64,000 nt of DNA from Shinisaurus crocodilurus (taxonomy: Eukaryota > Chordata > Lepidosauria > Squamata > Shinisauridae), in contig JAHFWL010000946.1 of assembly GCA_021292165.1 (NCBI GenBank), positions 27,824 through 91,823 of the forward strand, in the 5' to 3' direction. The position numbers were made by a program, and so were the translations under genes. Each line of letters opens with the position of its first letter. Positions within the stretch are counted from its first letter, which is position 1. Shown one piece after another: positions 61,241 through 62,534 of this stretch. Below the pieces are notes generated by a model that had not been told where the DNA came from, searched no databases, and was given only the letters and a program-made list of their open reading frames with translations.

Positions 61241-61440
61241 CTTTATCTTACCACCTTAGCTCAAGCAACATAAAGCTCCACAGCAAAATATTGCAGCCCA
61301 AGTCCGATCAGTCTGGTGTATCCATTCCAAATTCATGTAGATTGACAGACTTGGGCTTACTTAAATCTTACTGGAAGCAGGGCTGGTGCTACCATTAGGC
61401 AAACTAGGCAGCTGCCTAGGGCGCCGGGCTAAAGGGGGCA

Positions 61441-61882
61441 CCAGAAATGCCTTGGGGAAAAAACCATCTCCCCCCACCCTCCCGCCGCCCACCCATATCC
61501 AGCTCAGGAGGGGCCAGTGGCGGGAGGAGAGCGCCTCAAAGCTCGGCCCGGACTGCGAGCAAGAGCAGCCAGCAAGCCCTCCCACCTTCTCTGCCCTCTG
61601 TCGCTCCCTCCTTCCTCTGCATCCCCAGCAGCAACAAGCAGCAACTCCTCCTCCTCCTCCTCCACACGCCGCTCAGCCCTGCTCTCTCCCTCAGCAGCAG
61701 CAGCAGCAGCTACAACAATAGCAACAACCCGAGTGCTCATCTCCAGGGGACGATGCTCTGGCTCTCCGGCAGCTTCCGAGCGGTGGCTCAGCTGCTCCGC
61801 TTCCCCGGGCTAACCTTCGCCGCCTGGCTCTTGCTGCACCACCTTGGACCCCCCATGGCTCTGGCATCCTCCTTCTTGACAG
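61441..61882 (+). pseudogene. Captured host first exon (5' UTR, signal peptide, splice donor) inside a hAT element
   Basis: The GC-rich leader with CCTCCTCCTC and CAGCAGCAGC runs resembles a CpG-island 5' UTR. An ATG at 61753 opens 43 codons: MLWLSGSFRAVAQLLRFPG, then TFAAWLLLHHLGPP and MALASSFLTG. This is a hydrophobic signal-peptide-like stretch (about residues 14-33) followed by an Ala-rich cleavage-like region. The frame meets a strong donor, GACAG|GTAAGG, at 61882/61883, leaving phase 1, usual for the first exon of a secreted or membrane protein. I do not recognise the parent gene. It lies antisense to CSMD1 and has no downstream exon in the window, so it is a transposon-carried gene fragment, not a working gene. 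Confidence 0.7.
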
Positions 61883-62224
61883 GTAAGGATGGGCACGGGG
61901 ATGTTGAGGGCGGGGGTGGGTGGGTCCAGGCAAATGCACATTATGCAAGGATTCTCTGTGATAAAGGGGATCTGTAGAACTTCTCCCTCATTTTCACATT
62001 TGGCAACAGAGCCTGTATGAGAATTTAAAAATTAATACTTTTTGCTCACTGTCCACAATGGAAAATGAATTTATCATTTTAAATTCTCATACAGGCTCTG
62101 TTGCCAAATGTGAAAATGAGGGAGAAGTTCTACAGATCCCCTTTATCACAGACAATCCTTGCATAATGTGCATTTGCCTGGACCCACCCACCCCCGCCCT
62201 CAACATCCCCGTGTCCATCCTTAC

Positions 62225-62332
62225 CTGTCAAGAAGGAGGACGCCAGAGCCATGGGGGGGGGGGGTCCAAGGTGGTGCAGCAAGAGCCAGGCGGCGAAGGT
62301 TAGCCTGGGGAAGCGGAGCAGCTGAGCCACCG
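62225..62332 (-). pseudogene. Inverted second copy of the captured exon's 3' part
   Basis: The minus-strand arm repeats CGGTGGCTCAGCTGCTCCGC to CCTTCTTGACAG, with the same GTAAGG donor at 62224-62219, now in the CSMD1 sense. It lacks the ATG and has a 12-base G run (plus strand 62253-62264) that breaks the frame. The change to CTTCCCCAGG creates a possible acceptor at 62305/62304. Confidence 0.7.
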
Positions 62333-62534
62333 ATCAGCCAAATCTACTGAAAAGTTGATACTATTAATTTCCATGGGGCTTACTTCCACGTAAATATGCT
62401 GAGGTTTGCCAATTGACTTTTATTTCATAATGGGCATAGGGCTGGAGGGAGGGAGGGCTCAAGTGGGAGGGGGGCGCTAAATATCTGATCTTGCCTAGGG
62501 CACCAAACTGCCTTGCACTGGCCCTGACTGGAAG

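Follow-up and report, generated by a model that had tools for sequence, protein, structure and literature searches.

Pieces of the BMPER gene in an internal palindrome of a multicopy hAT-type element of Shinisaurus crocodilurus

A stretch of 64,000 nucleotides of Shinisaurus crocodilurus DNA (assembly GCA_021292165.1, contig JAHFWL010000946.1, positions 27,824 to 91,823, forward strand; C444:27824-91823 in our numbering), here called the window, contains a short transposon-like unit whose interior is folded back on itself. From the letters alone, the initial annotation read it as a hAT transposon that had captured the first exon of a host gene and duplicated it in inverted orientation, and that might act as a mobile exon donor or a source of double-stranded RNA. 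The locus therefore raises the questions of whether a parent gene exists, how its pieces came to lie between transposon ends, and what they now do. The genome searched comprises 2.19 Gb; window positions are given below without a prefix.

Boundaries and class of the element

The unit at 61378-62526 is a non-autonomous hAT-type element, delimited and built as follows.

61370..61377, no strand: left target site duplication (TSD), ACTGGAAG
61378..61466, plus strand: left end of the hAT-type element, common to family members without BMPER
61778..62030, plus strand: left arm of the palindrome, 253 bp
62031..62076, no strand: loop, made of the end of BMPER intron 1 (to 62055) and a 21-nt filler
62077..62335, minus strand: right arm, the inverted copy of the left arm, 259 bp
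62410..62526, plus strand: right end of the hAT-type element, common to a large family
62527..62534, no strand: right TSD, ACTGGAAG, a perfect 8-bp match to the left TSD

The hAT superfamily is characterized by an 8-bp TSD and by short terminal inverted repeats (TIRs) starting CAGGG. The perfect duplication claimed in the initial annotation is present, and the inverted ends match at 10 of their first 12 positions (imperfect 12-bp TIRs); short repeats with the CAGGG start are found both in the window copy and in a consensus of eight copies, which starts CAGGGCCGGTGC and ends GCACCGGCCCTG. Other copies with duplications of their own, also foreseen, were found: 24 of the 56 BMPER loci examined (native gene and known duplicates removed) possess both ends and a TSD matching at seven or more of its eight positions, all of these TSDs being different. 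Such a TSD also accompanies 7 of the 10 sampled family members without BMPER, and a similar left end of approximately 70-88 bp is shared by L079, L080, L081, L082, L085, L086 and L088. Two family ends, the BMPER pieces and the filler fill the whole of 61378-62526, so that a transposase, which had been reported as lacking, has no room. No autonomous partner with the same ends was identified among the family members fetched.

Foldback (FB) elements possess long inverted repeats out to their termini; here the palindrome is internal (61778-62335) and the ends outside it agree over only about 12 bp, which excludes that class. Helitrons, which have neither TSD nor TIR and insert at AT, are ruled out by the 8-bp TSDs and the TIRs. 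No match was obtained in a phage collection, nor was one expected. Immediately before the left end, at 61059-61191, is a 20-bp inverted repeat (copies 93 bp apart, 95%), possibly another small element.

The inverted repeat of about 250 bp around a 46-bp loop was correctly described. Its arms pair in two blocks, one of 182 bp with 98% complementarity and one of 77 bp with 97%; this length and complementarity are far beyond chance. The exon end and intron start reported for the arms are indeed there, but the description was incomplete: a complete exon 2 with its splice acceptor also lies in both arms.

The parent gene and the captured segments

The peptide of this second exon (62097-62180, SVAKCENEGEVLQIPFITDNPCIMCICL) matches VWC1 of crossveinless-2 (BMPER) in PDB (3bk3_C, E 1.9e-10; 2mbk_A, 2e-10), and with exons 1 and 2 joined the crossveinless-2 match begins at residue 40. 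One weak PDB match of the spliced peptide, to 3esi_A at 0.013, has no clear meaning, and a Pfam search with the exon-2 and spliced peptides gave no match. Neither Pfam nor PDB gave a match for the exon-1 peptide by itself, but this peptide is that of exon 1 of the host's own BMPER gene, which lies on C5.

C5:73923489-73923618, plus strand: native BMPER exon 1 (locus L072)
C5:73925259-73925344, plus strand: native BMPER exon 2
C5:73956638-73956745 (start approximate), plus strand: native BMPER exon 3

Intron 1 of the native gene is 1,640 bp long, and its exons 1 and 2 translate into the same 72 residues as the window copy. A human BMPER bait (at least 84 matches, 72 of 344 candidates scored) gave seven plus-strand matches on C5 from 74,020,273 to 74,137,168; their identities of 71-90% far exceed those of the remoter VWD/VWC-type matches that were listed at other places. 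Exons 1, 2 and 3 are found in order upstream of these seven, and later exons reach C5:74137168, not every BMPER exon having been located. The captured first exon proposed in the initial annotation consequently has a parent with real downstream exons. Another locus considered as parent from a cut-off match (L057) is actually a copy of the element with an insertion.

The BMPER pieces in the window copy are the following.

61467..61925, plus strand, sense: segment A, BMPER 5′ leader, exon 1 and 43 nt of intron 1 (C5:73923188-73923661, plus)
61753..61882, plus strand: BMPER exon 1 coding part, phase 1, signal-peptide-like (MLWLSGSF...MALASSFLT/G)
61927..62012, minus strand: BMPER exon 2 antisense in the left arm, then the antisense acceptor
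From antisense exon 2 to 62055, minus strand: segment B, antisense exon 2 and the end of intron 1
62095..62180, plus strand: BMPER exon 2 sense in the right arm, 86 nt, acceptor AG at 62093-62094
62225..62335, minus strand: BMPER exon 1 antisense in the right arm
62336..62409, plus strand, sense: segment C, 74 bp of intron 1

The left arm holds exon 1 in sense and exon 2 in antisense orientation, and the right arm is its mirror around the 46-nt loop. As annotated, exon 1 combines an ATG (61753), a signal-peptide-like reading frame and a phase-1 GTAAGG donor (CAG/GTAAGG, 61882/61883). Sense exon 2 encodes GSVAKCENEGEVLQIPFITDNPCIMCICL, in frame with exon 1, and the plus strand of the right arm reads ...TTCTCATACAG/GC TCT GTT GCC AAA TGT... 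across the acceptor. The leader deserves its description as CpG-rich: the leader/exon block (61467-61925) has a GC content of 0.65 and a CpG observed/expected ratio of 0.45, the ratios in the two measured flanks being 0.11 and 0.18.

Mapping of the eight-copy consensus onto the native region gave these correspondences.

Consensus 88-558: C5:73923188-73923661, plus strand, 94.8% over 481 columns, indels included
Consensus 559-690: C5:73925345-73925214, minus strand, 132/132
Consensus 691-711: filler, no match in the native BMPER 5′ region
Consensus 712-816: C5:73925241-73925345, plus strand, 105/105
Consensus 817-968: C5:73923661-73923514, minus strand, 96%
Consensus 969-1042: C5:73925078-73925151, plus strand, 74/74

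The three captured pieces come from approximately 2.2 kb of one gene, in mixed orientation. For the left part, a consensus of 19 sequences (the allelic pair described below counted twice) agrees with the native gene at 457 of 465 aligned positions, with 16 gap positions; the corresponding figures for the window copy are 432 of 452, with 31. By eye, most junctions show 0-1 bp of microhomology, and at the last one TTTGC is common to intron 1 and the family right end, the uncaptured form of which was taken from L031 (5953-6110). In this stretch L031 carries the right end a second time, inverted and with more of the hAT part, about 0.9 kb from its BMPER half element.

Could the BMPER-like part be a repeat in its own right, or a retrocopy, and no capture of a host gene at all? 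Its many copies, and an exon-1 peptide that alone finds nothing in Pfam or PDB, would agree with that, but this origin is extremely improbable, being refuted by the native gene with its downstream exons, with which the consensus agrees completely over 132 and 74 bp. A processed retrocopy would have lost its introns, whereas pieces of intron 1 and both splice sites are retained here; the ends are of the cut-and-paste type with 8-bp TSDs, and the right end is the TIR itself, with no poly(A) tail. The mapped 3.2 kb around native exons 1 and 2 contain no match to the element's ends. Found here are a TIR element whose ends enclose part of a host gene, a parental gene elsewhere that lacks those ends in the region mapped, and several copies with independent TSDs, as in a multicopy Pack-TIR (Pack-TYPE) element.

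About 1.1 kb upstream of native exon 1, at C5:73922449-73922482, part of that exon recurs as a 34-bp stretch of 97% identity, perhaps a scar of template switching of the kind considered below for the element.

Copies, arms and other members of the family

The whole-element query gave at least 92 matches (40 of 2,192 candidates scored), the leader/exon-1 query at least 44 (40 of 133 scored) and the exon-2 protein query 100 (all 125 scored). The matches listed merge into 93 loci, the whole-element search entering with 43 start places (one or more per locus) and one exon-3 match being omitted; these include native BMPER and a weak VWC match at C1:10780825 (68% over 34 residues). BMPER-derived sequence is present at approximately 91 loci among the matches listed. 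The window copy is allelic to one at C5:207.9 Mb, sharing insertion, TSD and flanks (4,184 bp aligned, 24 mismatches, 89 gap bases), and the pairs C4:119.38/119.47 and C15:9.88/C501 are duplicated stretches; given these allelic and duplicated pairs, at most about 88 independent insertions were seen.

Palindromes are prone to assembly artefacts and the window contig is short and unplaced. However, the same palindrome at other loci, with TSDs of their own and in chromosome-size contigs, as well as at the allelic place on C5, refutes such an explanation, the chance of which is negligible.

Among the 56 loci, those not having both ends with a TSD comprise 2 with both ends but no TSD, 16 with the left end only, 13 with the right end only and 1 with neither; in two of those counted as right end only (L023 and L039), 6-9 bp of the left end remain and the TSD matches 8/8. 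Of the 56 loci, 12 keep both arms as well as both ends, 11 of these having a TSD. Outside CpG, 15 of 19 sequences diverge from the consensus by 0.8-2.6%, and L006, L007, L048 and L038 by 4.6-6.4%, a value taken to be inflated by an inverted loop in the first three, not in L038. The native gene is about as close to the consensus (8 differences in 465 positions), which suggests that the capture happened fairly recently and that the spread is about equally old.

Of 12 copies, four (L006, L007, L008 and L048) have the loop in the opposite orientation with respect to the ends, which points to recombination between the arms. Eleven private changes common to both arms within a copy, distributed over 8 of 16 copies, indicate some conversion between arms and hence partial homogenisation; mean arm divergence is 3.1% within copies and 3.6-4.2% between them. 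The left arm is kept (>85%) with less than half of the right one at 12 of the 56 loci, and the reverse is found at 19, many of the breaks lying at or near the loop. Such one-armed breakage is expected of unstable palindromes.

Half elements broken at or near the loop (L029, L030, L032, L033, L034, L036 and L042, and the left halves L016, L017, L018 and L038) border other DNA on their other flank, with no matching TSD in the fetched stretch, and look as if palindromes had broken at the centre and then been joined elsewhere. Pairing 4 left with 13 right halves, 2 of the 13 being duplicates of others and the end being misplaced in at least two (L033 and L041), gave no TSD pair matching at 6 or more of 8 positions.

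The 558 nt of arm, loop and arm (61778-62335) fold as RNA at -540.5 kcal/mol, as compared to -196.9 ± 7.0 for 100 shuffles (z -49). From such a model, the main effect of the element might be a hairpin RNA whose processing would yield small RNAs directed at BMPER exons 1-2, or at the element itself. The near identity of the arms to native exon 2 and to most of the coding part of exon 1, together with their partial homogenisation, would be consistent with this; but only 12 of the 56 loci have both ends and both arms, which gives no sign of selection for maintaining the hairpin, and we consider silencing an improbable main role.

The element belongs to a larger family. The right end alone, used as a query, gave 931 first-look candidates; 40 were scored (97-100% identity), 31 of them outside BMPER loci, and 10 of these 31 were fetched. 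L081, L085, L086 and L088 represent one form of 276-277 bp, L085 and L086 having the same TSD. Family ends and an 8/8 TSD also enclose L079 (507 bp, C4:35.6 Mb, interior GC 0.46), L080 (1,063 bp, C15:6.68 Mb, 0.51) and L082 (2,039 bp, C1:117.3 Mb, 0.54), the interiors of which are unrelated to one another or to BMPER except for a short stretch beside the right end. The L082 interior recurs in L083 (C4:230.8 Mb; 94.6% over 1,283 bp). No left end was found within the fetched 1.4 kb of L083, L084 and L087; a right part longer by 113 bp is common to L084, L087 and L079. These other interiors, like exon 2 and the third, intronic piece of BMPER, go beyond what the initial annotation had described. 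The family has held several different interiors and, judging from these members, may capture other DNA repeatedly, BMPER being the sole proved host source.

Splicing capacity, origin and related elements

On the plus strand the donor at 61883 is followed, 212 nt downstream, by an acceptor of exon 2. A donor and an acceptor in the order needed for splicing, at a distance of 187-221 nt, occur on both strands at 14 of the 56 loci, on one strand at 13 and on none at 29. GTAA and AG are kept in 40 of the 41 donor-acceptor pairs listed, by patterns that allowed three changes only and would not list lost sites. Splicing of exon 1 to exon 2 in silico was tried for 16 copies, of which 14 could be scored; 6 of these 14 keep an open frame, among them L005, with a Cys-to-Gly change, and the other 8 have lost it, mostly through the poly-C tract of exon 1. 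Variation in this tract also explains why the spliced frame is open in the window copy and closed in its C5 allele.

Exon-2 copies carry 55 nonsynonymous changes (3 of them stops) and 14 synonymous ones (79 ungapped hits, 1,918 codons, native gene excluded, two-change codons skipped, transitions weighted four to one). The ratio of 3.93 is not below the neutral expectation of 2.68, and thus gives no sign of purifying selection on the protein. A genome search for the spliced junction (two mismatches or fewer) hit one place, C2:135064729, which has no exon context and is attributed to chance; no spliced retrocopies of the element were found by this search. The predicted spliced peptide consists of Clip and part of subdomain 1 (SD1). 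For zebrafish CV2, Clip and SD1 are reported to suffice for BMP-2 binding (PMC6270503), and binding by the predicted element peptide is doubtful because its SD1 is cut short. As far as can be judged from frame, substitution ratio and junction search, protein use of the captured exons appears to be contradicted.

By analogy with known cases, copies within introns might nevertheless be functional mobile exon donors, the first exon and its donor adding the BMPER leader or signal peptide to host genes. The preserved splice pairs and the CpG-enriched leader would suit this role, as would the 12 loci at which the left arm stands with the right mostly lost, leaving the donor free of the hairpin and of the internal acceptor; there is, moreover, the precedent of HelibatN3, for which experimental splicing is reported (PMC4778049). 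In full palindromes, however, the donor sits in a hairpin of about 250 bp and faces an acceptor about 212 nt away, and with the frame lost in most scored copies and no signal of selection we regard this function as unlikely.

We prefer, with a probability of about 85%, the reading that a Pack-hAT acquired pieces of the BMPER 5′ region, probably in one burst of template switching, and was spread to approximately 90 places by hAT transposase acting in trans. Mixed-strand segments from ~2.2 kb of a single gene, the snap-back copy and the filler suggest template switching. Synthesis would have proceeded from the left hAT end into the BMPER leader and exon 1 (A), then switched to the opposite strand about 1.7 kb farther downstream, copying exon 2 in reverse (B), and snapped back through the 21-nt filler to copy its own product, so creating the palindrome; a jump to intron 1 (C) and a return to the right hAT end would have completed the element, which hAT transposase could then have moved. 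We infer the single burst, and this order is one reading of the segment map, which several separate captures would fit as well. At present the element is most likely a selfish passenger, the captured splice sites of which could be used when transcribed, from donor 61883 to acceptor 62094 or, after loss of one arm, to a downstream host exon.

Animal TIR transposons with captured host DNA are described as rare and almost always single copies (PMC8277862). Tan et al. (2021, PMC8277862) give 370 animal Pack-TIRs in 100 genomes, 208 of them on hAT; multicopy ones number four across the 100 reference genomes, to which comes one family that is polymorphic in flies, and replication fork switching before transposition is proposed for them. 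hAT-N8_XT of the western clawed frog is likewise of hAT type, with distinct TSDs and a host 5′ fragment spread by transposition, but is described with the CAPSL 5′ UTR only and on three chromosomes (PMC8277862), whereas the BMPER element has ~91 loci, two exons, both splice sites, an intron piece, a palindrome and relatives with other interiors. HelibatN3 of Myotis is also multicopy, with a captured promoter/first-exon piece and splice donor. It is a Helitron and not a TIR/TSD element, and the part of the report used here gives it a NUBPL promoter, six codons and the donor, with no mention of a second exon; its splicing was demonstrated by experiment, whereas that of the BMPER element is predicted from sequence (PMC4778049). 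Turmoil-1 of C. elegans likewise holds two exons and an intron of a host gene within inverted repeats, in both orientations, but is described as a Harbinger with transposase, 760-bp terminal repeats, one complete copy and eight fragments (PMC2572040); the BMPER element differs in its internal palindrome and large family. Repeated capture of unrelated host pieces by one family is known from plant Pack-MULE/Pack-TYPE elements (PMC8903248); here the capturing family would be of hAT type and belong to a vertebrate, and BMPER is so far its only proven host source.

A wider reading, possible but tentative, makes the family a serial capturer of gene pieces like plant Pack-MULEs (BMPER at ~91 places plus at least three unrelated interiors, one at two loci), whose one-armed copies would be free first exons splicing into host genes and whose intact palindromes would yield hairpin RNA against BMPER.

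Among the papers listed by a literature search, none with a BMPER-carrying or squamate Pack-hAT was seen. As far as that search goes, a vertebrate TIR element at ~91 loci with two exons and both splice sites in a palindrome, its parent gene at hand and several interiors in its family, is new. BMPER is a growth-factor regulator active in development; a TIR element has here multiplied its first two exons approximately ninety-fold, and their splice sites are the same as those of the native gene. With the parent present and identity extending over hundreds of bases, the element records a possible route of capture, template switching with snap-back. Its full-palindrome, one-armed and half copies are natural material for work on exon donation, hairpin silencing and palindrome instability. 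The element itself is an unusual case, for animals, of mobile DNA reshuffling parts of a host gene.
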